Shown piece by piece: positions 2,965-26,917 of a stretch of DNA of 64,000 nucleotides (position 1 is its first letter; every line of letters begins with the position of its first letter). The position numbers and the translations under genes were made by a program. The stretch is from a virus, in the IMG/VR virus record IMGVR_UViG_3300037010_001227, positions 1 to 64,000 of that record. The stretch is one strand, 5' to 3'. The notes below the pieces were generated by a model. It made no database searches and was not told where the DNA came from. It worked only from the letters and a program-made list of their open reading frames with translations.

Positions 2965-3054
2965 TTATCTTCCAGTGCATGTTCCTGTGCAGGATGAACT
3001 ACAAGTATTACTACACGTAACATTAAGTATACTAATTAATCCTTTAAGGTATAC
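2965..3054 (-). other. Short Cys-x-x-x coding stretch after the SPASM gene
   Basis: On the minus strand a frame open from 3054 to a TAA at 2965 ends NVTCSNTCSSSCTGTCTGR. It holds four Cys-x-x-x units and the same Gly-Arg-stop ending as the long Cys-rich fibre at 7096. It overlaps the end of the radical SAM/SPASM gene in the +1 frame. No ATG, GTG or TTG lies in this frame; only ATT or ATA follow an AAAGGA Shine-Dalgarno-like site at 3040-3045. It may be translated from a rare start, be reached by +1 frameshifting at the CCT-TAA-A junction as a C-terminal extension of the SPASM enzyme, or be the remnant of a fibre 3' end. The coding resemblance is clear; expression is unknown. Confidence 0.45.
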
Positions 3055-4171
3055 TTAATTTAAGTTCTTTTTCTTTAAGTTTACTTGCAAAATACATCTT
3101 TGCTATTGATATAGCATGAGTCCATCCGCACTGACGTTTTTCATTAACGTATTTTTCCTTATCTTCTACTTCATATATAGCTGCAACACAAGTAGGACAA
3201 GATGCTCTCAGTAAGCAAGTCTGGCACTCTTCTGGCCAAATACGTTTAAAAGTTGTTACCTCATTTAATAGTTTTGTATTTGTAATATTGATAGCATTGT
3301 CACTAAAGGTTCCTAGTTCCATACCAGGTTTATCCATAGTGCAGAATCTATTACAACCATATAATTTACCATCAATTCCTAAACAAGCCATATGAACGCA
3401 AGTTCCACACCACGAATCCTGACTAGAAGACAAAACTGGCATATAAGATTTAATATCTTCTAAAGAATTACCAAATTGAAGTAATTTGACAGTAGATTCT
3501 AGATTATTATTAACAATATAGTCGATAGTTTGTTTTAGTGGTTTAACGATGTCATAGGATAGATCTTTAGTTACAATATCTTCAAAGACTATGTTCCCAG
3601 CAATCTGAGTAAACCCTAATTTAATCAAATTTACCATACCTTCATAATAACTATTAAGATATGTCTCTACTGTGAAGGTTGCTTTTACACTTACATTCTC
3701 TTTGCCTAAAGTCTTAAATAACCAAGGTAAATATTCAATAGCATCTTCATATGAACCAGAACCATCTTTATAGATTCTATATTTATCGTGGTTTTCTTTT
3801 GTTCCATCTACAGAAACCCCAAGAGAAAAATCATTAGTTTTATATTTTTCGATTAAAGCTCTAACTTTAGGATTTTTTAATGTAGTTCCATTTGTAGTTG
3901 TAGATAGGAAAATATGCTTATTAAACTTATGCGACAACTGAAGAGCATATGAAAAAATCTCGTCACAAAGTTCAGGAAACAGAAAAGATTCTCCACCAAT
4001 CAAGTCAATAATAATATGCTTGTTTTCAATAGTTTTGAACTTAATATACATAAATGTCTTGATAGTATCAATGTCATTATGTTTCTGTTCTTTATGCTCA
4101 TAACAATAAGTGCAGTCTAAATTACAGCTTAAATTGGTAAGAATTTGAACTGTGGCTGGAATACCATTCAT
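3044..4171 (-). CDS. Radical SAM/SPASM protein, probable peptide maturase
   Basis: A 375-residue enzyme. The radical SAM cluster motif Cx3Cx2C is C16, C20 and C23, and the SAM-binding GGES is at residues 59-62. The C-terminus is a cysteine-rich SPASM-type region (C255, C258, C263, C273, C277, then C316, C319, C325, C328, C348) expected to hold auxiliary [4Fe-4S] clusters. SPASM enzymes typically modify ribosomal peptides (sactipeptide and ranthipeptide thioethers) or sulfatases. Its ATG overlaps the stop of the preceding radical SAM gene by one base, so the two are coupled. The nearest Cys-rich substrate candidates are the fibre at 7096-8802 and the short stretch at 2965-3054. All canonical residues are present; the substrate is inferred from context. 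Confidence 0.85.
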   Translation of the reverse strand: MNGIPATVQILTNLSCNLDCTYCYEHKEQKHNDIDTIKTFMYIKFKTIENKHIIIDLIGGESFLFPELCDEIFSYALQLSHKFNKHIFLSTTTNGTTLKNPKVRALIEKYKTNDFSLGVSVDGTKENHDKYRIYKDGSGSYEDAIEYLPWLFKTLGKENVSVKATFTVETYLNSYYEGMVNLIKLGFTQIAGNIVFEDIVTKDLSYDIVKPLKQTIDYIVNNNLESTVKLLQFGNSLEDIKSYMPVLSSSQDSWCGTCVHMACLGIDGKLYGCNRFCTMDKPGMELGTFSDNAINITNTKLLNEVTTFKRIWPEECQTCLLRASCPTCVAAIYEVEDKEKYVNEKRQCGWTHAISIAKMYFASKLKEKELKLSIP

Positions 4172-5589
4172 TATAACAGTCCCTTATTAAATCGTTTACA
4201 AATATCTAAATAATAATCAAAATCATTTCTGGTGGCAAATAAGTTTTCTTTACCCTCTGCAGCAAATACAATCGTATTTTTATATGTTGGATATAGCTTT
4301 TTCAATTCCATTTCAATTGCTATGACAGCAGTAATATCAAACGTTGCCTTGGTAACTTGTAAATCAATTTGAAAGGGGCACATAAAAATTCTAAATAGTT
4401 CTAAAAAGTCATTTGAAAAGTGCTCATTTGGAGAAATTGATTTTTTAATCTTTTTAGTTGTACTAGTAAGAAGTTCTTTTACTAAATCAAGATTTCTACT
4501 TTGAATAACTGCATTTTTAACTGATTTTGTATCACCATTTAAAGTATCAAAATTAACAATTAACGAAATACCATGATAATTTGTAAAAGCAACCAAAGAT
4601 TTAGTAATAGAATACCCATCAATAATTAAAGATAACTTAGCCATCGGTTGCTGAATTTTAACTGTCTGAATAATGCTTAAAAAATCATGTTCATCAATGA
4701 AATTATCCGAACAATCAAATACGATTTCTTTATATTTGGTTGCCATAGTTGCATTTAGTAATTTAGGATTAGATGCTATTAAGACATATTCTAAAACTAA
4801 TTTTGAGGGTTCCATAGGGTCTCTTCTGAAAGTGTCTACAAATTTTAAAAACTCTGTGTATTGTTCAAACGACATTGCAGTTCTGTATCCTACGCATCCT
4901 GGAAAACCTGGAACTGGTTCACATAGTTTCTCAACAGAGCCATCAGCATTTATAATCATATCTGAATAATCACATTGTTTTGTTGTATGTGTAAATGTCA
5001 ACCATTTAGTGCTTGTAGAATCTATAGTTTTTAAAGCTATTAATTCCTTTTTAATCCAATCTAATGAAATATCGTCAAATTTTTGAGTTACATCTAAAGA
5101 CAATCCAATGTTTGTATTAAATAGGATTCGCAATTGATGTAAGGTGTTACAAAGGTTTTTAGTATTTGGCAATACTATTGTAGACAAGGACAAACTGTTA
5201 ATAGTCTTTAATAACTGGGGCCATTCTTGGTTATCAGTTATAATTTTAGCATCTTCTACAGATTTCTCTCCAGTAATTCCTTGGAGACTAATAATGATAT
5301 GAATATTGTTGGCATTAATCCATGAAATAATCTCTGGTGTTAATAGTCTTCCATTAGTATTTATCGTCTTTTTGGAGTCTAGACTTAAGGAAGATATTAC
5401 CTTTTTTAACTTATCGAAGTCTAAAAAAGGTTCGCCACCAGTTATAACAGCATGTTCATAATATCCAAAAGTACTAATAGACTTTAAAATGGCTTCAATA
5501 TTCTCGCCTTTTTTAGAATCTTCTGTTTTTAAACAGAAAGAACACTGCATATTACAGTGTTCATTCAATTGTATTGTTAATATTGACAT
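4171..5589 (-). CDS. Radical SAM protein with a degenerate second barrel
   Basis: A 472-residue protein. The N-terminal half has the radical SAM motif C12, C16, C19, followed by TGGEP (about 50-54) and a TNGRLL strand typical of this fold. From about residue 255 the order of elements repeats without the cysteine motif: compare GITGEKSVEDA in the first half with TLNGDTKSVKNAV in the second. This suggests an internal duplication in which the second barrel lost its cluster. The same elements occur in the broken gene at 6374-7089 (VLQGEKSVLNAI), so the two genes are related. It is coupled by TAATG overlaps to both neighbours. It probably works with the SPASM enzyme on the same substrate; that is inference. 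Confidence 0.8.
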   Translation of the reverse strand: MSILTIQLNEHCNMQCSFCLKTEDSKKGENIEAILKSISTFGYYEHAVITGGEPFLDFDKLKKVISSLSLDSKKTINTNGRLLTPEIISWINANNIHIIISLQGITGEKSVEDAKIITDNQEWPQLLKTINSLSLSTIVLPNTKNLCNTLHQLRILFNTNIGLSLDVTQKFDDISLDWIKKELIALKTIDSTSTKWLTFTHTTKQCDYSDMIINADGSVEKLCEPVPGFPGCVGYRTAMSFEQYTEFLKFVDTFRRDPMEPSKLVLEYVLIASNPKLLNATMATKYKEIVFDCSDNFIDEHDFLSIIQTVKIQQPMAKLSLIIDGYSITKSLVAFTNYHGISLIVNFDTLNGDTKSVKNAVIQSRNLDLVKELLTSTTKKIKKSISPNEHFSNDFLELFRIFMCPFQIDLQVTKATFDITAVIAIEMELKKLYPTYKNTIVFAAEGKENLFATRNDFDYYLDICKRFNKGLL

Positions 5590-6263
5590 TATTTACCTGA
5601 AAGAATTTCAGCTCTCTTAGCAAAATAATCGGCCTGTAAAGCTCGTATTCTGGCTTTTTCAGCAATAATAGTAGCTGGAGTATTAGAGTTATTAATATTT
5701 CCTACTGTTAACATAGTTTTTAAATCTTCACCATATTTGTTGCAGATATTTACATCATTAAGAACTAATAGCTGAATGATTTCTGTTAAATAATCAACTT
5801 GAGCTTCTAATGTGGCAATAGACGAATAAGGATCTATTTTATAGGTAATAGTTTCAAATTTTATATCTTGTTTTTTACACTTAAAATCAAACTCTGGTAT
5901 TGTCTTAAGATAGGTAAGAAAATTAGAACATGAGTCAAAACCATGAGGTCCACAATCTAATGTTTCTGCCGTGCCACAATAAATAAACACAAAGATATCA
6001 GAACCTACTCGTAAAATAGTAGCAATATGCATATCATTTAGAGTTTTATCACTCCAAGGGAATGTACGATAGGTTTTATTTGACTCATTATAATGTAAAA
6101 AGACGCCATCAAAAGATTCTTTTAGTGGAGAGCAGTCAAAAGTATATGGTAACGTAGTTTTATAGTGATTAATCACTATAGTAGTATCATTTACTATACT
6201 TACAGAAATTACTCCAGTGTCTGTTAAATAATCAGAATTGGTAACTTTAACTAGTTTTATCAT
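5589..6263 (-). CDS. Unknown protein inside the radical SAM operon
   Basis: A 224-residue protein with no family recognised. The first two thirds look beta-rich with scattered Cys (FDCSPL, FIYCGTAETLDCGPHGFDSC). The last third is helical and Ala-rich (AEKARIRALQADYFAKRAEI) and may form a coiled coil. Its stop overlaps the ATG of the two-barrel radical SAM gene by one base. Being locked between radical SAM genes, it is a candidate partner such as a substrate-binding, leader-recognition or fibre-chaperone protein. No RiPP recognition element could be identified by eye, so the role stays open. Confidence 0.65.
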   Translation of the reverse strand: MIKLVKVTNSDYLTDTGVISVSIVNDTTIVINHYKTTLPYTFDCSPLKESFDGVFLHYNESNKTYRTFPWSDKTLNDMHIATILRVGSDIFVFIYCGTAETLDCGPHGFDSCSNFLTYLKTIPEFDFKCKKQDIKFETITYKIDPYSSIATLEAQVDYLTEIIQLLVLNDVNICNKYGEDLKTMLTVGNINNSNTPATIIAEKARIRALQADYFAKRAEILSGK

Positions 6264-6342
6264 TATCTTCTTCCAAGTGAATAATTTGCATTTCCTGTTT
6301 AAAATTGTCTATTGTATCTATAAAATAATTAAGCGTTTCCAT
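6247..6342 (-). CDS. Possible small ORF, 31 aa
   Basis: A short frame from ATG 6342 to TAA 6247 encodes a charged helical peptide (METLNYFIDTIDNFKQEM...). It overlaps the start of the 224-residue gene by 17 bases. No clear ribosome binding site is visible. It occupies the gap after the broken radical SAM gene and may be a small coupled gene or chance. Confidence 0.25.
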   Translation of the reverse strand: METLNYFIDTIDNFKQEMQIIHLEEDNDKTS

Positions 6343-6373
6343 ACTATCAAAACAAACCGCCTCACACTAAATC

Positions 6374-7089
6374 TCAACAACCATTCCAGCCCTTGACAGG
6401 TCGGTAAGGATAAGGTCTGAAAAGTAAATTAAAACATCGTTGATTACATTCTTTGTGGGCAAGTAAAAACTTTACTGACTTAAATACAGAATAAGGTACT
6501 AGTTTTTGTAATTCTGCTTTTATAAATTCTACATCAGCGGGTTTAAATTTTTTCGTGGAATCTAATGTAAGCTGAAAGGTGGCAGATGGAAACAATAAAG
6601 ACAAATCTTTAAAAGATTCTGTAAAAGTTATAGAAGCAAATACTACTTTCATAAGTTCTACTTGATCTAAATGCCGTATATGATCTATCAGAGAAAGATT
6701 TTGTGTGAGATTAATAGCATTTAATACGGATTTTTCACCTTGTAAAACATCTCTAAAACCTATGGAAAATTTTATTTTATTGTAATTAAAATAATTTACT
6801 AGTTCATTTGTTAGTAAACTACCATTTGTATACACAGACAACATCATAGTTTTTGAATGTTCTCTTACATATGTTATAGCGGGAATAAAAATTCTAAGTC
6901 TTGTAAAGGTTCTCCGCCAGTAAACGATATTACTGTATATAGATGATGTCCAAAGATGTCTTTAAACTTTTCTAACCTATCACTAGTAGATAACCTGTCT
7001 TTTCGCTCTAAAAATTCGCGTCTAGAACAAAAAGAACAGTTCATATTACATAAAAACCTAGTAAAAACAAAAAGATCGTAAACTTTCAT
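6374..7089 (-). pseudogene. Radical SAM gene broken by a 1-base frameshift
   Basis: Two frames together make one radical SAM protein. The first (7089-6874) has CNMNCSFC (Cx3Cx2C at C14, C18, C21) and TGGEP, then ends early at EFLFPL-stop. The second frame (ATG at 6847) carries SVYTNGSLL and VLQGEKSVLNAI. The second frame is open upstream of its ATG and reads IPAITYVREHSKTMML, the missing link. Adding one T to the five-T run in the codons for Glu-Phe-Leu would restore a single frame of about 235 residues. The product would still be half the length of the related 472-residue protein. It is a recent frameshift, a homopolymer sequencing error, or a slippage-controlled gene. It starts 7 bases after the Cys-rich fibre gene. 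Confidence 0.75.
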
Positions 7090-7095
7090 AAGTTA

Positions 7096-8802
7096 TTAGC
7101 GACCTTTGCAGCCACTAGCACAATCTGCTGTGCAAGATGCAGAACAAGTTCCTGTGCAAGTTCCTTCACAACCACCTGTGCAAGTTCCTGTACAACCACC
7201 TGTGCAAGTTCCTGTGCAAGTACTAAAACAAGTTCCTGTGCAAGATGTCTGACAACCACCAGTACAGGTTGAAGAACAAGTTCCTTCACAAGTTCCTGTG
7301 CAATTTGCTGTGCAATGTCCAGTGCAAGAATTTAAACATCCTCCAGTACAAGATGTAATACAACTACCTACACAAGTATTATTACAACTACCTTTACATG
7401 TAGATAAACAAGACCAAGAACAACTACCACCACAAGTATAGAAATCGGGCGGTTGACCACCTAAAGTAACAGCATTAACATTTGTTATTTGAGAACCATC
7501 ACCAGCAAATGAGGGGGCAATGAATCTAGTGGAAGAAGCCAAGGAAACAGGATGTGTTTCATCAGCAGCTCTTCTTGATATAATAGAATCTACATCAGAC
7601 GTTCCAGAACCAAAGCTGATTTCACCACTGTATGAGATAGAAATTCTACTAAAAATATCACCGGGAACATTAGTAACCAAGGCGTCTTTGTGTAAAGGAC
7701 CTACAAAGTGGACACTAGCTGGATCTGTAACAATTAATGTGCCAGCTACTAAATTATCACCGTCTCTATTAATTTTACGATTTAACTGACTCTGAACAGG
7801 ACTTGTTACACCAGATAAAAGATTCAACTCGTCTAAATTGGTATTCATTGTAACAACTACTTTGTTAGAGTCTATACCTAAAACTCTATTAGCTGTTAAT
7901 TTATTTAACAGTAAATCAGATGTATTACTTAAAGCAATAGAGCCTGCTGTATGAGTAACTGAACCAGTCAACTGTGCAGAAGCTAAAGGAGCTTTTAAAT
8001 CTAATTGGCCTTGAATAGGAGATGTTACATTGTGAACATAAGAAAGTTCAGTAGATGTGGTTGAAGAGCTTGTTAATTTTTTATTGTTGTCTAAATAAAC
8101 AGCAGTTGAAGCAGTTAATGAAGAAACAATAAAATTATTAGATAGTGTAAGGTTGTTTGCAGCTGTTAAACCAGTTAAGTGAGCATCCAGTAATGGAGCC
8201 TTTAAGTCTAATTGACTCTGTAAAGTTATTCCAGTTGACAAATCAGATAATTGATTGATTTGATTTGTTGATACTGCGGCGCACATAATTTTGGAGCCGG
8301 TTGGATCCGAAATTAAAACCTTGTTTGTATCCAAGCCGGTTAGAGTAAATGCACCGTTACCAATAGTAACGGCAGCAGTAAAGTTTGCTGGTCCTTCTAC
8401 AGTAACATCCCCAAGAAAATCTACAGGCTTAGTAAAGTCTACGTTGTTATTAAAATATGATAGTCCAGTGAACGTAGTATTACCACTAAAAATATTATTA
8501 CCACTGAAGTTATTAGGAGCAGCAGACAGAGCAAAGTCTGACATTGTAGTGCCGTCATGACTAAAATAGAGTCTCCAAGCATTTACATTAGTATCCCAAT
8601 CACATTTAATATGTGGATTATAATTTACACCGACATTGTTTGATACCTGGAACACCAAATACTTTGGACTGTATCCTACTCCGTGTCCATTTTGTTCTCC
8701 ATCGGGGGCTCCATTAACAGCTGTTAACGGAGTTCCAATAACAAAGTCATTGTCAGGTGTTGTTGTGTATCTAAATTGACTTAATCTTAACTCACCACTC
8801 AT
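7096..8802 (-). CDS. Tail fibre with (Cys-x-x-x)28 C-terminus
   Basis: A 568-residue fibre protein. Residues about 1-90 form an N-terminal domain that may attach to the virion. The middle has fibre repeats of the type QSQLDLKAPL...LTG (near residues 198, 270 and 340), typical of trimeric phage fibres. From C457 to the end every fourth residue is Cys, with Gly, Ser and Thr in most other places (CGGS CSWS CLST ... CTGT CSAS CTAD CASG CKGR): 28 units without a break. Only two other Cys precede it (CDWD, MCAA). It is followed 7 bases later by radical SAM genes. The tail may form thioether, disulfide or metal cross-links at the fibre tip. The fibre assignment is firm; the modification is inferred. 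Confidence 0.85.
   Translation of the reverse strand: MSGELRLSQFRYTTTPDNDFVIGTPLTAVNGAPDGEQNGHGVGYSPKYLVFQVSNNVGVNYNPHIKCDWDTNVNAWRLYFSHDGTTMSDFALSAAPNNFSGNNIFSGNTTFTGLSYFNNNVDFTKPVDFLGDVTVEGPANFTAAVTIGNGAFTLTGLDTNKVLISDPTGSKIMCAAVSTNQINQLSDLSTGITLQSQLDLKAPLLDAHLTGLTAANNLTLSNNFIVSSLTASTAVYLDNNKKLTSSSTTSTELSYVHNVTSPIQGQLDLKAPLASAQLTGSVTHTAGSIALSNTSDLLLNKLTANRVLGIDSNKVVVTMNTNLDELNLLSGVTSPVQSQLNRKINRDGDNLVAGTLIVTDPASVHFVGPLHKDALVTNVPGDIFSRISISYSGEISFGSGTSDVDSIISRRAADETHPVSLASSTRFIAPSFAGDGSQITNVNAVTLGGQPPDFYTCGGSCSWSCLSTCKGSCNNTCVGSCITSCTGGCLNSCTGHCTANCTGTCEGTCSSTCTGGCQTSCTGTCFSTCTGTCTGGCTGTCTGGCEGTCTGTCSASCTADCASGCKGR
7099..7434 (-). repeat. Cys-x-x-x tandem repeat coding region, 28 units
   Basis: Twelve-base coding units, one Cys codon per unit, repeated 28 times with no change of register. 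Common forms are TGT/TGC-ACA-GGA/GGT-ACT (CTGT, CTGG). The units vary in sequence, more at the 5' end, so selection on the spacing of Cys rather than simple recent slippage maintains the pattern. The short stretch at 2965-3015 has four more such units. Confidence 0.95.
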
Positions 8803-8834: not shown

Positions 8835-9602
8835 TTACGCGATAAAGAACTGTTGGCTTGAAGCATGGTTTGCCAGCTCTTCTCGTAAATTGGTTATCTC
8901 ATCTTTGGCTTGTGACAGCAGTTCCTGGGCATTTAAAGTTTGAGTCTCTCCAGTAGCACCAGCTATAGTTGAATATTTACCACGAACTAATCCTAGCATG
9001 TTCTTTGTAATAGCAAGGGCCATACGCTTTATCCAATAGGTTCCCCATTGATTAGATGTGGATATGGCTCCATCTTTAGACATAACGCCAAAGGCATTTT
9101 TAGAATACTCGATAATAACTGTCTGAGTGGCCTTAGGATAAGGAAATAGATAGAGTGTATTGTCAATAACTTTAAAAGTGATATCAAGACCTAAAGCTCG
9201 GTTTCTATTTTGTATATACTCATAGAATACAGCAAGATTAGCAGCACCATGAATAAAATTACCATAGCCAGCTCCTTGTAATCCTCCAAAACCACCACCG
9301 CCTCCCATAGCGAAACTAAAGATGTCTGTTGTTCCAGCCATACCGGCCATTATTTCGAAGGGCATAGCATAACAAACACTAGAGACAGTTCCTACTTCAG
9401 GAGGTAATGGAACTTCATTGTGCCCCTGAATAGCCATCGGTTGGTAGTAAGCTCTTTCTACTGCTCCAGTGGCAAGGTATTCATCCACGGCGGTGTTAAT
9501 AGCAGTATGAAGTTGAGCTTCATCTAACTCAACAGCAACAGTGGGCCAACCTAAATTAGTCAGGATGTAATTTTGAATGTCTTCTCGTTTGATTAAGCCC
9601 AT
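8835..9602 (-). CDS. Neck protein, T4 gp13-like
   Basis: A 255-residue protein matching the T4 gp13 layout. The N-terminus (IQNYILTNLGWPTVAVELDE, then a helix of AINTAVDEYL type) parallels gp13's opening helix and 'GAPIINVELTPDQI'. The middle is Gly/Ala/Met-rich (GMAGTTDIFSFAMGGGGGFG). The C-terminus has a helix WIKRMALAITKNMLGLVRGK followed by a charged coil (AKDEITNLREEL), as in gp13. gp13 and gp14 form the neck that seals the filled head. It lies between the gp6-like wedge gene and the fibre gene. Assigned by pattern; no alignment was run. Confidence 0.75.
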   Translation of the reverse strand: MGLIKREDIQNYILTNLGWPTVAVELDEAQLHTAINTAVDEYLATGAVERAYYQPMAIQGHNEVPLPPEVGTVSSVCYAMPFEIMAGMAGTTDIFSFAMGGGGGFGGLQGAGYGNFIHGAANLAVFYEYIQNRNRALGLDITFKVIDNTLYLFPYPKATQTVIIEYSKNAFGVMSKDGAISTSNQWGTYWIKRMALAITKNMLGLVRGKYSTIAGATGETQTLNAQELLSQAKDEITNLREELANHASSQQFFIA

Positions 9603-9610
9603 TGGTAACC

Positions 9611-12040
9611 TTACTTAGCTATGTTAATTTGTAGATTTGTTGTGTTTAATACAATAATTTCGTATGGTTTAATAGGATACTCAGCGCCGAAGAGAATATC
9701 ATACTCAGAAGATAGTTTAGGAAAGTCTCTTTGAGAGTCTTTGTATCCTGGAATATCTTTAAGTTGCTTATATGTTTTAACTCCAGTTGCTAATACTGTT
9801 CCATCAGGTAAGAATGCGGAAGCCAATCCACCAACATAAATGTCAAAAGATTCTACGCCTGAAATAGCAGATAATGACTTAATGAAATCAAAGCTATTTA
9901 AACCCATACCCATTTCAAAATTATCCATTTTGAAATAGTTTGTTACAGAAGTGTAAATATCATTTCTGATTTGGCCTGATAGGTAACCAGCTTTTACTTT
10001 AACGTCTAGTCTGATATCTAAACTTCTCATTAAACCGTCAGCAACTTCAATATCAACACCAATACACTTATATTTATTTAAATAGTTACGTAATTGATAT
10101 TTTTCAGTAAGTGTTAAAGGCTGAACGGAGGTTTTATTAACTGAACTTAAGCAATACAGTCTAATAATGCTTCCATCTGAATCAGATTTAACAAGAGCAG
10201 CTGCAACTTTATAATTACTATTGAATTTTTTAGCCAGTGTAATATAATCTTCAGAACCTACTGCTCTATCTTGAGCAGCAAAGAATCGTGTTACTAATTC
10301 CTTAGAAGATTCAATAGATTCACCTTTTGACGAAGGTGCTGAAGAATATTCATTGTTTAATGAAACAATTACACCACCAATCCGAATTGACTTCTCTGAT
10401 TCGTTAGGTTTAATAATATAACCGTAACTACCAGTATTATTTACTCGATAGATAACTTTAATAGCTGCACCCTTGTCTGGGATTGCACCAAAATGACCGT
10501 CACCAAATCTAATAAAAGCATTAAAATTACCATCCCAAGTGACTTCATATACAGATTCTGCTTTATAGTAGGTATCAATATCTGCTGACAACCCAAACGC
10601 GATAACATTGTCAGATAATACCTTACCAATAGCAATCTTGTATGAAGGATTATTTTTTAAGAACTTAATAGAAGGATATTTAGTTGGATCCGCTAACTCA
10701 ATTTGAGTATCTGACACTAATTGTGGTTGTTTATATTCACCACCAATATCCTTATATTCTAATAGATAAAGAATGTCTCCAGCTGACCAAGCAATTGGTT
10801 CACCATAAATATTTGTAACTTCTGTTTCTAATGTAGTAGATGTAGCTGAATCAGTATTATCTGCAACTTTACCATAAACATATGCAGAGTGATATAATAA
10901 AAGATCAACATAATCATCACCAGCTACGGTAGAACTGGATAGATTAGAAATAATACCAATTCTATATGGAACATTTAGATTAACAAAGTCTTCATACTTG
11001 GCGATAATAGCTTCGTTATCATAATTGATAGCTAACATCATACCAACTTGAAGTAGATTGTTTTGTTTTAATCTAAAAGTCTCTTCAGATAGTTTAAAAG
11101 GAGCCAACAGGTAAGGAGTGTTTAAATTTTTTGTTGCTCCTACTTCAGTAGCAGACTTAAAGCCTGCTAATGCTAAGTAAGAAAGTTCGCCCCAAGTATT
11201 ATAAGCATACTTTCCAGGAATATTAATAGTAGTATCTTGGACTTGAACAATTATTGATGAGTTTAATACAGGTCCAGAACTTAAAGTAATGATTTGATTT
11301 GCAGTTCCATTAGATCGAAAATCTTCAACTAATGTCGTTCCACTTAATGCGAAACAAGTATATGTATTGAGTTCTTTTTCAATAGATTCTGCATCAGGAT
11401 CGTCAACTCTCACATAAGGTGGTAAAATAACATCACCTAAGTAATCAGGCTCAAAAATACCGTCTGTTAGTATAGCTGGGAATAATTCAAAGGTTTCTGA
11501 ACCAAAGGTAAGTTTTCTTCGGGCTAAACTAGAAGAAAAAATAATTTCTGAGGCATCCTCAATGTCTCTCGCTGCTGATGAATTAGCCAAAGATCTGTTT
11601 CTGGTAACTTTAAGAAGCAACACACCTTGTTGAGGACGGGAAGGTTTATATTTAAACATGTTTAAGAGTCTGTAAGTAGCGTATGCAGACTGTGAAGTGT
11701 CTAAAAATAGTTCGTTAACCATGGAATCAGTGTGATATGAAAGCATTTGACCCATGTAGGCCATCATGTTCATCATCATGCCTGAAGTGTTTGAATCTGC
11801 AAAGTCTCTTACAGAATACCCTAATTTAGCAGAATTGGCCTTAAGTAGGTTTAGTAATTGCAGTTTAATAGAACTGAAGTCTAAGTTTGTATATTCAAGA
11901 GGCGGCAGCTGAGGCTTAAATCTAAGTAGATCAATATCCAACGGAGTAACAGCGTCCGGTATATTTGGGTCTACTATAATATTTCCAGTAGAAGATACTA
12001 TATCTGTTATACTATTTGGCGTATTGTAAATTAATGTCAT
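9611..12040 (-). CDS. Baseplate wedge protein, gp6/J-like
   Basis: An 809-residue protein. Near residues 50-130 it has the helical segment typical of T4 gp6 and P2 gpJ-type wedge proteins (NLLKANSAKLGYSVRDF, YHTDSMVNELFLDTSQ, ATYRLLNMFKYKPSRPQQG). The C-terminal third has the conserved J-domain features: RFFAAQDRAVGSEDYITLAK, then a cysteine-containing YKCIGVDIEVADG region and alternating strands. The wedge ring surrounds the hub and links the fibres to sheath contraction. It is longer than T4 gp6 (660 aa). Nine bases separate it from the gp13-like gene, within a compact operon. Confidence 0.85.
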   Translation of the reverse strand: MTLIYNTPNSITDIVSSTGNIIVDPNIPDAVTPLDIDLLRFKPQLPPLEYTNLDFSSIKLQLLNLLKANSAKLGYSVRDFADSNTSGMMMNMMAYMGQMLSYHTDSMVNELFLDTSQSAYATYRLLNMFKYKPSRPQQGVLLLKVTRNRSLANSSAARDIEDASEIIFSSSLARRKLTFGSETFELFPAILTDGIFEPDYLGDVILPPYVRVDDPDAESIEKELNTYTCFALSGTTLVEDFRSNGTANQIITLSSGPVLNSSIIVQVQDTTINIPGKYAYNTWGELSYLALAGFKSATEVGATKNLNTPYLLAPFKLSEETFRLKQNNLLQVGMMLAINYDNEAIIAKYEDFVNLNVPYRIGIISNLSSSTVAGDDYVDLLLYHSAYVYGKVADNTDSATSTTLETEVTNIYGEPIAWSAGDILYLLEYKDIGGEYKQPQLVSDTQIELADPTKYPSIKFLKNNPSYKIAIGKVLSDNVIAFGLSADIDTYYKAESVYEVTWDGNFNAFIRFGDGHFGAIPDKGAAIKVIYRVNNTGSYGYIIKPNESEKSIRIGGVIVSLNNEYSSAPSSKGESIESSKELVTRFFAAQDRAVGSEDYITLAKKFNSNYKVAAALVKSDSDGSIIRLYCLSSVNKTSVQPLTLTEKYQLRNYLNKYKCIGVDIEVADGLMRSLDIRLDVKVKAGYLSGQIRNDIYTSVTNYFKMDNFEMGMGLNSFDFIKSLSAISGVESFDIYVGGLASAFLPDGTVLATGVKTYKQLKDIPGYKDSQRDFPKLSSEYDILFGAEYPIKPYEIIVLNTTNLQINIAK

Positions 12041-19583: not shown

Positions 19584-22430
19584 TTAGTAGAACAGTAATT
19601 GTCTGAAACATTCAGAGTTTGAATGTCTATTAGTCCAAAGATACTTTAGGCCATCAATAGTAGAATAGATTTCTGTTCTATTACCAATAATAATGGTACC
19701 TGTGTTATATGGAGTTATACCAGCACCATGAATTGTATTCGTAATACAATCTAAATAATACCAACGTAATGTAGCATCTTTTTCAAAGTAAAGTCTATCA
19801 CCATAATCATACGCGTATTGAGAACCAGCTGATAAGACTTCAATCTGTGGAGTAACTGGAATTAAATTCCATTGATCTGTTGTGATATCTAATTTATCAA
19901 ATCCTAAAGCACCACCGCCGCGAGCACTAACCATATATTTGCCACGGAAAGTTTGATTGATAGTACCTAAACCAAATATCCATTTTAAAGAAATACCAGT
20001 ACCGCGAACTGGCGGTTGAAGAATTACATATGATGAAACTGATGCTACTGGAGCAGTAGCAGCACCAAAAGTTAACGTATTATTGGTATTTGATGTAATA
20101 GTTAATTCTTGAGCCTGGCCAGTGCCTCCTAATATTCTAACTTTACGTCCAGCATAAGCATTAACTACCCAGCCTGGGGTAATAGTTCCACCAGAAATTG
20201 AAGATGTTGCAGCCATCGATAAAGTATAAGTTCCTTGACCACCTAATGATCCATTTGGCATAGTAGATGTTAACTGATTAACAATGACGGCACCAGCAGG
20301 AATACTAGCATGTGTTACCGACATTCCAGGTGATAAAATACCTGATGGAGTAGTAGAAACGGTTAATACAAAACCTCCAGCATTCATAGATCCAGTAAAT
20401 GTACCAGTTTTTGTAGTATCTTGTAATGTAGTTGTAGATTGTGTACCAGTAGCAATACCATGATCTAAAGTTCCAATTGTATTTCTAGGCGTAATAACAT
20501 AACGAGAAACTCCATTAACAGGAGCGGTTCCAGTTGTTACAAACGTTAATGTATCAGCAGTATTTGAAGCAATTTGGAAAACTTGACCAGTAGCTAGTCC
20601 AGACGCGGCAGTAACAGCGGTTGTGGTCATATAACACATATAGCCAGCCCACTGATTTGATGTCCATGATTTAGTTTTGTCACATAATGTTGATGTAGAT
20701 TGAGAGCCAGCTAATGTATCTGCCGAAGGTGTTCCAGCCATTGTATATGTAAAGGTTGTAGTAGAAGGAACCGAAACAATAGTAGCAGTAGTATTAAAAT
20801 TAGCATCCGTCATACCTTTAACGGTAATTGACATACCTACTTTAAGACAATGTGGATTAACGGTTGTAATTGTTGCTGTATTAGTAGAATGTGTTGCTGA
20901 AGCGATTGCAATTGGTTTAGTTTCTCCAAATATTACGCAAGCATTTCTCGCTACACCAGAATCAGCCAATCTCCCATAAGTCGCAATATCGTCGTCATAA
21001 TTATGAATTAACGTAGCCGCCTGTCCACCTAACATTATATAGATTTTGTCGCCATCTCCTTGGAAGTTATAAACAGATGTGGAATCTGGAGTTACTAACC
21101 ATGGTTTAGCTAACGTAATAGTTGTAGCAGTATTACTTAGAATTGGCATTACCTGACCCGCGCCAGTTCCGCTTGTGATTCTAATAGCGTAATTTTTAAA
21201 TCTATTAATTGGCCAATTCTTAGTATTATCAACTAAAGTTGTAGTTGTAGCACTTGTAGCTGTTCCAGAATCAAATCCATCAATTAAATACTTTGAAGTT
21301 GCATCTGGTACTGTTCCACTAGTAGCCCACGTTAAAGTATTAGCTGTATTACTAACAATTTGTCTTAATTGACCATCACCTGTTCCTCCAAATAAACGAA
21401 CATAATAACCGGCCCATTGATTAGTATTCCAAGATTTTGTGGTATCAATTAAAGTAGTTGTAGTACCACCTGTAGCTACTCCACGTTCCCAAATAGACGA
21501 ATTTTCTGTACAAGATTCAATTGTTCCATCGGTTCCAACAGCAGATATATTTAACGTGTTAGCCGTTCTAATATACCAAGTATCTGTTGCAACATCATAA
21601 ACTTGTAATGTATAAAATGGCGTTGCAGCAGCGGAAGATGCTAAAATAACCATTCCAGATTCAATACGGAAAATAGATGTAATATCTGGATTAACAGTCC
21701 AGTTTGTATCGACTGTAACAGTTGAAGATTCAATAGAATAGATAGATTGAGATCCAGCCGTAGCAAGAATAGCTGGTGATGTAATCATTGGATTACACCA
21801 GTTATTTTGCGCAGAAATACCAGAATCGCCTAAATATAAAACAGTGGCAGAATTATAAAGAATACGTCTTACTTGACCAACGCCAGTACCAAAACTAATT
21901 CTAACTTGATATCCAGCCCATTGATTAACTGTCCAAGCTTTTGTTGTATCGGTAATTGTAATAGCGCCCAATACGTTATTAACTGCTGTTGGAACACCCG
22001 TATCCATTACAACGGGTTCAGATACATCTGTAATAATTCTGCGCTGTCCCTTTCCCGTTCCGCCGACAATACAAATATCAAAGTTCTTTAAGGCTTGTCC
22101 AGAATAAGCTGGAATATTAATAGAGTTATTAGTAGTTCCGGGAAGGCATAATCCTTCTACCCCTAACGCACCATTAAATTTCATTGCTGACCATGTTGCA
22201 GGAGCAATAGGTGGAGAAGATAACTGAAGATATGTATCAGTCCATGTGTCATATTTCCAGAAAGACGTGGCTGCGATTAGATAATATATATATCTTCCAT
22301 GTTGAGGATGGAAGTTTGAGTTGTCTGCACTACAAGAGCTTGAACTAGTTGAAGAAGACACTGGAGCAAATCTTGCCCATTCCCAAACGGGAATGTCAAC
22401 TTGTTTTCTTAGAGTATTCTGAATTGCCAT
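19584..22430 (-). CDS. Fibre/adhesin with WAGYxVRI repeats
   Basis: A 948-residue virion protein with at least seven repeats of about 75-110 residues. Each contains T-T-T-L-x-D-x-T-K-x-W-x-x-N-x-W-A-G-Y-x-V-R-I, GTGxGQxRxI and SNTAxTLT (for example NQWAGYYVRLFGGTGDGQLR). The unit is rich in Thr and Asn and predicted to be beta-structured. The N-terminal 100 residues are different, with a Ser/Cys-rich SSSTSSSSCSAD segment. An array like this suits a long host-contact fibre or decoration protein. A 10-bp-stem terminator follows it. Its ATG overlaps the stop of an HNH endonuclease gene by one base. Confidence 0.8.
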   Translation of the reverse strand: MAIQNTLRKQVDIPVWEWARFAPVSSSTSSSSCSADNSNFHPQHGRYIYYLIAATSFWKYDTWTDTYLQLSSPPIAPATWSAMKFNGALGVEGLCLPGTTNNSINIPAYSGQALKNFDICIVGGTGKGQRRIITDVSEPVVMDTGVPTAVNNVLGAITITDTTKAWTVNQWAGYQVRISFGTGVGQVRRILYNSATVLYLGDSGISAQNNWCNPMITSPAILATAGSQSIYSIESSTVTVDTNWTVNPDITSIFRIESGMVILASSAAATPFYTLQVYDVATDTWYIRTANTLNISAVGTDGTIESCTENSSIWERGVATGGTTTTLIDTTKSWNTNQWAGYYVRLFGGTGDGQLRQIVSNTANTLTWATSGTVPDATSKYLIDGFDSGTATSATTTTLVDNTKNWPINRFKNYAIRITSGTGAGQVMPILSNTATTITLAKPWLVTPDSTSVYNFQGDGDKIYIMLGGQAATLIHNYDDDIATYGRLADSGVARNACVIFGETKPIAIASATHSTNTATITTVNPHCLKVGMSITVKGMTDANFNTTATIVSVPSTTTFTYTMAGTPSADTLAGSQSTSTLCDKTKSWTSNQWAGYMCYMTTTAVTAASGLATGQVFQIASNTADTLTFVTTGTAPVNGVSRYVITPRNTIGTLDHGIATGTQSTTTLQDTTKTGTFTGSMNAGGFVLTVSTTPSGILSPGMSVTHASIPAGAVIVNQLTSTMPNGSLGGQGTYTLSMAATSSISGGTITPGWVVNAYAGRKVRILGGTGQAQELTITSNTNNTLTFGAATAPVASVSSYVILQPPVRGTGISLKWIFGLGTINQTFRGKYMVSARGGGALGFDKLDITTDQWNLIPVTPQIEVLSAGSQYAYDYGDRLYFEKDATLRWYYLDCITNTIHGAGITPYNTGTIIIGNRTEIYSTIDGLKYLWTNRHSNSECFRQLLFY

Positions 22431-23080
22431 TAAATTAACTCCTTCACTTTACTATGTCTTTTATGATGGCATATAAAACACAGAGTTATTCCATTGTCTA
22501 CAGCATATCTATATTCTGGATAATCCTTCCATTTTAATTTATGATGTGCATTTAATTTACCGCCCTTAACCTTACAATCTTGACACGTATAATCGTCTCT
22601 AATATATACGGCAGTTCTCCAATTTTTATAATCTAAAGAAAGAGTTGCATTAGAACGAACTTTATCCGAGGTATAATTTCCATTTTTATAATTCCAATGG
22701 CGTTTCCCTTCTTTTCTTAACTGTGCTGCATGTTCTTTTTTCTTTTCTGATATTTTCTTTTTTGCTTCTTCGGTATGATGATGTCCGTCAAATCTATATT
22801 GAAGATTTCTTAAATGTTCAGCTTTTTTCTTATTAGAAATTTCTTTTTCTTCAAGGGTTAAATTTTTCTTTTTTTGATTTTCTGAATTTACTTTGTTTAT
22901 ATGTTCTTTATTTTTTAAGTAATAATCTGCTTTATATCTTTTTAATTGTTCTTTATTATTAATGTAATCTCTTTGTTTACCTCTAAAACACACTTTACAT
23001 TCAGAACGATATTTTTGACTATCTTGTCTAAAATGAAATTCTTCTTTTAATTTATCTTCTTTACATATTTTACATATCAT
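22430..23080 (-). CDS. HNH homing endonuclease, apparently intact
   Basis: A 216-residue protein. The N-terminus is a four-Cys zinc motif (MICKICKEDKLKEEFHFR... CKVC) followed by a basic helical linker with a NUMOD3-like TEEAKKKISEKKKEH. The C-terminal HNH domain (164-209) has C166/C169, the H179-H180 pair, N196 and C201/C204-H205...H209, so all catalytic and zinc residues are present. Such free-standing enzymes nick or cut uninvaded DNA and spread their gene. It lies between two virion genes and overlaps the fibre gene's ATG by one base, as is common for phage homing endonucleases. Confidence 0.9.
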   Translation of the reverse strand: MICKICKEDKLKEEFHFRQDSQKYRSECKVCFRGKQRDYINNKEQLKRYKADYYLKNKEHINKVNSENQKKKNLTLEEKEISNKKKAEHLRNLQYRFDGHHHTEEAKKKISEKKKEHAAQLRKEGKRHWNYKNGNYTSDKVRSNATLSLDYKNWRTAVYIRDDYTCQDCKVKGGKLNAHHKLKWKDYPEYRYAVDNGITLCFICHHKRHSKVKELI

Positions 23081-24806: not shown

Positions 24807-26177
24807 TTAACTCAATTTAACTGGTATACTCGGATTGAATATAAATAAATCTGAATTTTCGGTACTGTGACCAACTACCAATAGATATTTGTCTCCATTT
24901 TCTGATAAGGGTCTTGTCAATGTTAATGTTCCTGTTTGTGATAAGAACAATGGTGCTGTTCTGTCGAAAATTGTCAAAGCATGATAAGAAGTTCCAGGAA
25001 TTCCAATTTTAACAGAAGCTCCTAAGACGCCTGCTTCTAAAATAATACCGTCGATTACAGGAGATACAGAACTTACTGAGTTAACCGCAAAAGCTCTTCC
25101 ATTAGTTAACTTGAAACAAGTAAATGCTGGTAAAGGTTCACCAAGTACTACAGAGTAGGAGATACCATGTGATACTAAGTTTGTTAGAACTTCTTGAACG
25201 TTATTACCCAAATTAGTATTACCTGGAGTAGTTACTGAGATTTGTGCTGCTGTATAATCACCAGCTTGAGCAGAAATGTCACCTTCTCTACCAAATACTG
25301 AAGCCACTTTGTCAATATCATTATATTCTTCAGCCAAAATAACTCCTGGTGCAGATATATTGGTTTCTTTAGCCACTTCAGATTGCTCTGCAATATTGAA
25401 TATTGAAGTAGTTCTATGAACGTAAGACTCTTCATGAAGTGGAGGAGTCATCCAACCTTTAATTGTAATTCTAATAGTTCCTCTAACTACACGTCTATCG
25501 GTTCCAGGAATAAAATTGCTTGTATCTGCAATTGAATCTAAGACCATAGGGACATAAGGAGTATAAAATAGTTTGTTAGTTTCATCTGTCATATCATATA
25601 CGTCTGTTAGATAGGACATTGGATTGAAATCATTATGAAAAGCTGTTAGTAACTGAAATAAGTGTTCTCTAAATTCTGTCCAGATATCTACTTGAATCTG
25701 ATAATCAATAGGGATAGGAGCATGTGTTACAAAGGCTTTATCAAACAACTTATTTTTAGGTTTTACTCGATATCTAACGCAAGGATTTACAGAACGTTTT
25801 TCGTCTCTTTTAGAGTCAAGAATATAGTAAGATACTAAAGGCAATACAACTCTATTTGTTAAAGATGCTTCTGAAGCTAATCCCGTAGAATTACTGGGTA
25901 AATTATCTGAAAATGCCTGCTGTGGTGATGCGTATCGAATTGGGATGTCAATAAACTCTTCTTTTGCTAAATCAAATACTTTTGATTTACTATCTCTAAG
26001 ATAGTCACCAAATTTTTTAGCGTATATTCTAAAATCACCTACATAACACTCTTCAACAGTATTAGCATAGGAATAGAGCATACTTTCTCTATCTGGAGAC
26101 ATTCTATTATCCGTTATTACAGGATAAGAATTACCAGGTCTATTCTCTTTATCTTGATAGTAAAGTTCTGTAGTCAT
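24807..26177 (-). CDS. Tail sheath terminator, T4 gp15-like, with extra C-terminal domain
   Basis: A 456-residue protein. Residues about 75-265 follow T4 gp15: FIDIPIRYASPQQAFSDNL (gp15 'FIRVPITYASKEHF'), LPLVSYYILDSKRDEKR, APIPIDYQIQVDIWTEFREH (gp15 'PSPIKMIYELSIFTRYEDD'), FHNDFNPMSYL, and GWMTPPLHEES (gp15 'GWMYPPVDD'). gp15 caps the tail and stabilises the sheath before head joining. T4 gp15 is 272 residues; here about 110 extra C-terminal residues are also found in the next gene downstream (24395-24805). Its ATG overlaps the stop of an inserted HNH-like gene by one base. Confidence 0.8.
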   Translation of the reverse strand: MTTELYYQDKENRPGNSYPVITDNRMSPDRESMLYSYANTVEECYVGDFRIYAKKFGDYLRDSKSKVFDLAKEEFIDIPIRYASPQQAFSDNLPSNSTGLASEASLTNRVVLPLVSYYILDSKRDEKRSVNPCVRYRVKPKNKLFDKAFVTHAPIPIDYQIQVDIWTEFREHLFQLLTAFHNDFNPMSYLTDVYDMTDETNKLFYTPYVPMVLDSIADTSNFIPGTDRRVVRGTIRITIKGWMTPPLHEESYVHRTTSIFNIAEQSEVAKETNISAPGVILAEEYNDIDKVASVFGREGDISAQAGDYTAAQISVTTPGNTNLGNNVQEVLTNLVSHGISYSVVLGEPLPAFTCFKLTNGRAFAVNSVSSVSPVIDGIILEAGVLGASVKIGIPGTSYHALTIFDRTAPLFLSQTGTLTLTRPLSENGDKYLLVVGHSTENSDLFIFNPSIPVKLS

Positions 26178-26917
26178 TAATAAGTATCTTTCATATAACT
26201 AATAAGTTGAGTTTGTATATTTTTATTTAACTTATTAAACCTACCGTCATGGGCTTTATTTTTATGACACTTTTTGCTTAAATTTGTAAGTTCACACTGC
26301 AACTCAAACGATTCTGAAACCGGTGCTATATGTAAAACTCCACCAATATGTCCACATAAATAATCAGTAAAATTATCTCGTTGTTTTATTTGTTTTTGTA
26401 TTTTACTTATATTATTTTTATTTTTATTTATAGCATTTATAGAGAACATTAAAACATCTGGATCTAATCCTTTTTTTAATCTATACACAGAGTGTTTAAT
26501 TCTCAAGCATCCACAACTATGAGTAGTACCATTTAATAAATTAGACCTGTTTACTATAGTAGTATTACCATAAGAACATGTACACTCGTATTGTTCATGA
26601 CCACATGAGGTTAATCCTACACAAGTAGTTACTAGTAAATTATCAAAAAATTTACCTATTAAAGAAGTACAAAACTTCTTACCTTTAACATTTTTATTAC
26701 CACTATTAGAGGTTCCTAATAATCTATCAGTTTCTTTTTTACAATAACCACAACTTTTAGTAATTCCACTTGTTAATTTATAGTTTTGAGTAGATTTTAT
26801 TATATTTCCACAATCGCACATATAAACACAAGCAGAACTACCACTCACTTTTTGAGTATTACCAATGGCAGTCAATTGATTATATTTTGAATTTACTGAT
26901 AAAAGTTTTATTTTCAT
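26177..26917 (-). CDS. HNH-family homing endonuclease, possibly degenerate
   Basis: A 246-residue protein. The N-terminal part has two copies of a zinc-binding DNA-recognition module common in phage homing endonucleases: CDCGNIIKSTQ...SCGYC and CTCSYGNTTIVNRS...SCGCL. The C-terminus (CGHIGGVLHIAPVSESFELQ, then CELTNLSKKCHKNKAHDG) is HNH-like with the Asn and the CHxxxH end. The usual 'HH' is reduced to LH and one Cys of the first zinc pair is missing (YLCGH). Activity may be lost. It lies between two virion genes and overlaps the gp15-like ATG by one base. Confidence 0.7.
   Translation of the reverse strand: MKIKLLSVNSKYNQLTAIGNTQKVSGSSACVYMCDCGNIIKSTQNYKLTSGITKSCGYCKKETDRLLGTSNSGNKNVKGKKFCTSLIGKFFDNLLVTTCVGLTSCGHEQYECTCSYGNTTIVNRSNLLNGTTHSCGCLRIKHSVYRLKKGLDPDVLMFSINAINKNKNNISKIQKQIKQRDNFTDYLCGHIGGVLHIAPVSESFELQCELTNLSKKCHKNKAHDGRFNKLNKNIQTQLISYMKDTY

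Follow-up and report, generated by a model that had tools for sequence, protein, structure and literature searches.

A phage tail-fibre tip with cysteine at every fourth residue and its putative radical SAM/SPASM maturation cassette

The window analysed here is the whole 64,000-nucleotide stretch formed by positions 1–64,000 of a 213,189-bp phage record (IMGVR_UViG_3300037010_001227). Its minus strand carries a structural module, with terminase, portal and major head protein genes at 56–60 kb and 51–53 kb. The closest matches of the terminase are T4-like phages at about 26%–32% identity, which places this phage, as judged by sequence, among the T4-like phages yet far from all named ones. No close relatives of the baseplate gene or of the enzyme gene P0003 were found in IMG/VR. 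Inside the module lie two HNH endonuclease genes (22430–23080 and 26177–26917) and, by eye, a possible GIY-YIG-type endonuclease (1173–1682). The minus strand reads from the baseplate-wedge gene through one gene (8835–9602) to the fibre gene, and the locus holds the following features.

9611–12040, minus strand: baseplate-wedge gene, from PHROG search.
7096–8802, minus strand: predicted fibre gene P0001 (568 aa), an open reading frame with PHROG matches, downstream of the baseplate-wedge gene.
7099–7434, minus strand: C-terminal tip of 28 Cys-x-x-x units, starting CGGSCSWSC, with a TIGR04114 match.
6240–7089, minus strand: broken gene for the radical SAM (rSAM) enzyme rSAM-A, of which pieces 6874–7089 and 6374–6847 match a phage rSAM-A profile.
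5589–6263, minus strand: P0004 (224 aa), an unknown protein occupying the accessory-gene slot of related cassettes.
4171–5589, minus strand: P0003, an rSAM-A barrel plus a second barrel, matching PF04055 (3.5e-9) once and the rSAM-A profile twice.
3044–4171, minus strand: P0002, predicted rSAM/SPASM maturase of the fibre-tip clade, from PF04055 (2.9e-10), TIGR04115 and the enzyme tree.
3023–3058, unstranded: inverted repeat TTAAGTATAC-16 nt-GTATACTTAA, read from the sequence, at the end of P0002 and flanking the stub.
2968–3015, minus strand: stub of another Cx3 tip that lacks a start codon, CSNTCSSSCTGTCTGR-stop, sharing a 41-nt direct repeat with the tip.

On two grounds, its position near the baseplate gene and its virion PHROG matches (phrog_16122, virion structural protein, 1.1e-6; phrog_6085, 2.7e-14), P0001 is predicted to be a tail fibre; its N-terminus has no relatives found in phage records. 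As the preliminary description had reported, the 568-residue protein ends in 28 unbroken Cys-x-x-x units, which fill residues 457–568 (112 residues) exactly. The CXXX-repeat model TIGR04114 scores this tip at 20.7 bits against a cut-off of 20, and 20,000 shuffles of its own residues never gave a Cx3 run longer than 9. An origin by chance or as an artefact of repeat DNA was rejected; the tip is not a 12-bp repeat read in a wrong frame. Its non-Cys residues are mostly Gly, Ser and Thr, with only one Asp and two Glu, and no Cys has an acidic residue at i+4.

The three rSAM genes (one broken, one with two barrels, one SPASM) and the unknown gene described earlier do follow the fibre gene. The one-base overlaps claimed for the whole set are present at 5589 and 4171, and none joins the fibre gene to the broken rSAM gene. 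The pieces of the latter match the rSAM-A profile at 6.5e-15 (6874–7089) and 1.5e-19 (6374–6847), its frame being disrupted in more than one place. P0004 gave no family match in Pfam, NCBIfam or PHROG scans, and its membership of the accessory family was rejected for lack of detectable homology. The first barrel of P0003 carries CNMQCSFC; of its two rSAM-A profile matches (1.8e-28 and 1.7e-13), the one in the second barrel begins only at profile position 49, and that barrel lacks the Cys motif. An AlphaFold model of P0003 alone reached pLDDT 35 and was set aside.

P0002 has the Cys motif pattern of an rSAM/SPASM enzyme, keeping every catalytic Cys and the full SPASM set; in eight aligned phage enzymes, the Cys of CX3CX2C and of the SPASM pattern (CX9-15GX4C, CX2CX5CX3C, C) are all invariant. 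It matches TIGR04115 (8.1e-46, 157.1 bits; cut-off 350), the PapB model NF047865 (5.3e-44, 150.8 bits; cut-off 340) and the SCIFF model TIGR03974 (85.8 bits; cut-off 425), and stays under the cut-off of every NCBIfam model among the matches listed. In a profile comparison with solved structures, 5wgg comes nearest (2.6e-35); we take it to be CteB, a thioether-forming SCIFF maturase. The same phage encodes further rSAM genes (G000:C1:146685-148643 and 170775-171071), with no Cx3 array beside them in the stretches examined.

The association of enzyme and array was analysed in both directions. A scan with P0002 as a single protein found nothing, and relatives were recovered only with alignment-based profiles. 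A profile built from the enzyme clade to which P0002 belongs gave 18 clear viral relatives (≥33% identity), among them enzymes of SPN3US-like jumbo phages of Salmonella, Erwinia and Cronobacter, whose records mostly leave the genes unannotated. All 18 have a same-strand array, ending 3–7 aa from the protein C-terminus; four remoter matches (22%–32% identity) adjoin arrays of another pattern, CxCxCxxx. A wider profile of SPASM enzymes gave 79 viral loci, 50 of them at ≥36% identity, and 42 of these 50 have a strict array (≥5 units) within 4 kb, on the same strand in 42 of 42. Of the eight others, four come from short or cut stretches (L279, L286, L292 and L304), the array of L290 has mixed spacing, and in the 289-kb genome of L288 enzyme and array lie about 60 kb apart. 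L293 (135 kb) encodes the same enzyme as L288 and has no strict array within 4 kb, and L285 has no array anywhere in its 61-kb contig.

In the opposite direction, viral contigs were scanned for runs of ten in-frame Cys, each four residues from the next, and for a second related pattern, yielding at least 229 viral loci. Filtering by DNA periodicity and by Cys among the x residues, with at least six Cys, kept eight loci with diverse arrays among the matches listed. Among the same matches, an rSAM/SPASM gene lies within 4 kb of six of the eight (L030/L247, L041, L047, L079, L082 and L087), compared with any rSAM gene at 1 of 221 others (Fisher 1e-9), and that single gene is an unrelated rSAM. 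The remaining two, L138 and L200, look non-coding. Most (Cx3)10 matches in viral contigs are 12-bp repeats in a wrong frame, none with an array-linked rSAM among the matches listed. Thus (Cx3)n fibres regularly lacking rSAM neighbours, named beforehand as an observation that would speak against the pairing, were encountered in neither direction. Among the array-linked loci, a 292-kb phage (G001; L247:6343-8643) encodes a SPASM enzyme adjoining an 894-aa Cys-array protein, and an intein-like insertion of 155 residues splits the CX3CX2C motif of this enzyme.

Before a tree of 91 enzymes was built, the label 'fibre' was assigned to the arrays of L305, L296, L298, L300, L301, the window and the SPN3US-like phages. 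The array protein of L305 has a PF12571 tail-fibre domain at its N-terminus (1.8e-40), those of L296 and L298 have numerous tail-fibre PHROG matches, that of L300 combines collagen-like repeats with tail PHROGs, and that of L301 follows a lambda gpJ-like protein. The SPN3US-like arrays, on small separate proteins, are putatively assigned to fibres from the shared motif and position. In the tree, the enzymes adjoining fibre-tip arrays group in a single clade (support 100/99), within which P0002 is sister to the L301 enzyme; the label requires a single change, and none of 500 shuffles was as low. This clade spans T4-like, phiKZ-like and other tailed phages, and the array starts agree: CGGSCSWSCLSTC (window), CSGCSWTCLSSC (L301), CANGCSWTCSSGC (L300) and CGGTCSWTC (SPN3US). 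The genomic pairing strongly supports the array and the SPASM enzyme as a putative enzyme–substrate pair, and together with the dedicated clade it supports the earlier proposal that the fibre tip is a substrate of the SPASM enzyme encoded with it.

A cassette of array, accessory, rSAM-A and SPASM genes recurs in L300, L301, L305 and SPN3US. The order is fibre, accessory, rSAM-A, SPASM in L301; fibre, accessory, SPASM, rSAM-A in L305; and fibre, rSAM-A, accessory, SPASM in L300, which is the window's order minus the added P0003. SPN3US has three array proteins (two full, one short), then accessory, rSAM-A and SPASM genes, and in L296 the fibre and accessory genes precede an rSAM-A fused to SPASM. 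This recurrence, together with the fusion, argues that rSAM-A and the SPASM enzyme would share one substrate. The accessory proteins of the related cassettes align as a single family; a structure search with the L301 model (pLDDT 63, and about 85 in the C-terminal half) gave no PDB match, its sole hit being the orthologue from Erwinia phage Asesino.

The SPN3US-like jumbo phages encode P0002 orthologues (34%–37% identity) accompanied by two or three small (Cx3)n proteins that start like the window's CGGSCSWSC; unlike in the window, the array sits on separate 130-aa proteins, off the main fibre. For pairs with estimable dS in these phages, dN/dS is 0.02–0.13 for the enzyme and 0.05–0.10 for the array protein, and 19 of 21 Cys columns in the arrays are invariant versus 11 of 56 others. 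Thus array and enzyme genes are both maintained by strong purifying selection. Their rSAM genes (gp163/gp164, by our inferred numbering) are mostly unannotated or called in a wrong frame, with no proposed function found in the literature examined. In public records of these phages, the (Cx3)n genes are missing or in a wrong frame (L002, SPN3US 4100-5129; L001), and virion proteomics would therefore have missed them; the main text of the SPN3US virion proteomics papers does not mention these proteins.

By sequence comparison, the closest known kind of system is the CXXX-repeat RiPP family TIGR04115, in which, as in the window, an rSAM/SPASM enzyme adjoins a protein with Cys at every fourth residue; a CXXX-repeat target encoded near the SPASM enzyme is expected of such systems, and in the window the 28-unit array of the adjacent fibre supplies it. 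The phage members L082 (444.7 bits) and L254 (434.9 bits) pass the 350-bit cut-off of TIGR04115, whereas the window's clade falls below it (P0002 157.1, L301 148.4 and SPN3US 125.6 bits). CXXX-repeat targets (TIGR04114/TIGR04117) are small exported peptides, whereas the window's target is a 568-aa predicted virion fibre, and the window has a separate rSAM-A enzyme. Cellular members such as L332 combine the enzyme with a peptide of 91 aa as well as a TIGR04119 domain and an ABC transporter; in contrast, the window yielded neither an exporter nor a TIGR04119 domain, and Pfam and NCBIfam scans identified no RiPP leader peptide for the fibre. CteB (5wgg), a SPASM enzyme with auxiliary clusters, resembles P0002 in profile; SCIFF targets are short six-Cys peptides, unlike the window tip. 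The PapB/PapA system shares a SPASM enzyme and repeats at spacing four, PapB being the second-best NCBIfam match of P0002. However, PapB joins Cys to Asp or Glu at i+4 (PMC9413430), whereas i+4 in the window is another Cys and acidic residues are almost absent. The analogy to PapB CX3D motifs drawn in the preliminary description is therefore weak, and PapB-type chemistry was rejected for this tip because the acceptors that PapB needs are lacking.

These comparisons enable us to propose a putative model, in which the locus would be a self-contained tail-fibre-tip maturation cassette. The fibre would be synthesised with Cys at every fourth tip residue, and P0002, aided by the rSAM-A enzyme P0003, would modify the tip before or during virion assembly. 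Most likely, Cys sulfurs would be joined to nearby carbons as thioethers, with about 2 H lost per link; thioethers from Cys to Thr, Ser or Gly are the most economical guess. The product would be a rigid receptor-contacting end, resistant to protease and reduction. From the gene patterns we infer the enzyme–substrate action, the thioether chemistry, the presence of the tip in virions and a role in adsorption, and we consider it likely that the SPASM maturase modifies the fibre tip before virion assembly, probably through thioether cross-links.

The enzymes may instead act on the tip to give another product, such as epimerised residues, C–C or Cys–Cys joins, or a metal or Fe–S tip, a reading to which we give a real but minor chance. 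The Cx3 unit breaks the PapB acceptor rule, Cys spacing in arrays is 4 or 3, the inter-Cys residues favour Gly in the middle (41%) and Ser/Thr at the outer two positions with Pro almost absent, two rSAM enzymes could mean two reactions, and the scores of P0002 lie under all the listed cut-offs. Thioethers are favoured, on the other hand, by the nearest families (TIGR04115, PapB and SCIFF), which are Cys-peptide maturases, the PapB and SCIFF models being named for thioether or ranthipeptide formation, and by Cys being the conserved residue of the arrays.

The tip stub, absent from the preliminary description, has 16 residues and lies between P0002 and the terminator; with the inverted repeat beside this terminator, it suggests that the tip-enzyme cassette was once inserted or exchanged. 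The start-less stub (2968–3015) and the broken rSAM-A (6240–7089) could also mark the window's copy as a decaying, non-functional remnant of a system that is real in other phages. This is improbable, since P0003 is an intact rSAM-A, P0002 keeps its catalytic and SPASM Cys, the 28-unit array is unbroken, and a past tip exchange explains the stub equally well. It is very improbable that the Cys run acts by disulfides or metal binding alone beside unrelated auxiliary rSAM genes: Cys-rich repeats elsewhere do behave so and unrelated rSAM genes occur in phages (147–149 kb of this record; L197), but pairings of 18/18 and 42/50, always on the same strand, and a single enzyme clade for fibre-tip arrays stand against it. 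On balance, we think it reasonably probable that a horizontally spread, dedicated phage SPASM lineage cross-links fibre tips, and that tip and enzymes travel as an exchangeable cassette among T4-like, phiKZ-like and other tailed phages.

Related arrays occur more widely. Phage Cys arrays of other spacing (CxxC runs, CTCTCT and CxCxCxxx in L303, L302, L307, L435–L438 and L323–L324) lie beside rSAM genes and are possibly parallel systems with other enzymes. One Cys-array protein (L291:6246-7499) has an N-terminal GDSL lipase/esterase domain and is perhaps a receptor-modifying tail protein. Candidatus Termititenax/Margulisiibacteriota (L335–L339) encode cellular proteins of 500–670 aa in which 79–122 Cys recur at every fourth residue, next to SPASM enzymes. 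The L336 array comes after the flagellar genes fliG, fliH and fliI, and may reflect the same chemistry at work on a flagellum or the cell surface.

In summary, an rSAM family for CXXX-repeat targets is already known from NCBIfam; its use on virion tail fibres, with a distinct enzyme clade spread over unrelated phages, appears to be new, and no description of rSAM-matured tail fibres was found in open-access papers. Known cases of peptide maturation by rSAM enzymes concern small secreted peptides and a few enzymes; in the present case the modification seemingly targets a component of the virion, and does so across many phage lineages, among them cultured phages of Salmonella, Erwinia and Cronobacter. 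This reading accounts for phage rSAM genes long annotated but unexplained. The findings point to a modified polymer at the phage–host interface, which would be a newly recognised chemical finishing of the part that touches the host. If true, a virus makes part of the surface that contacts its receptor out of a polymer carrying RiPP-like modifications.
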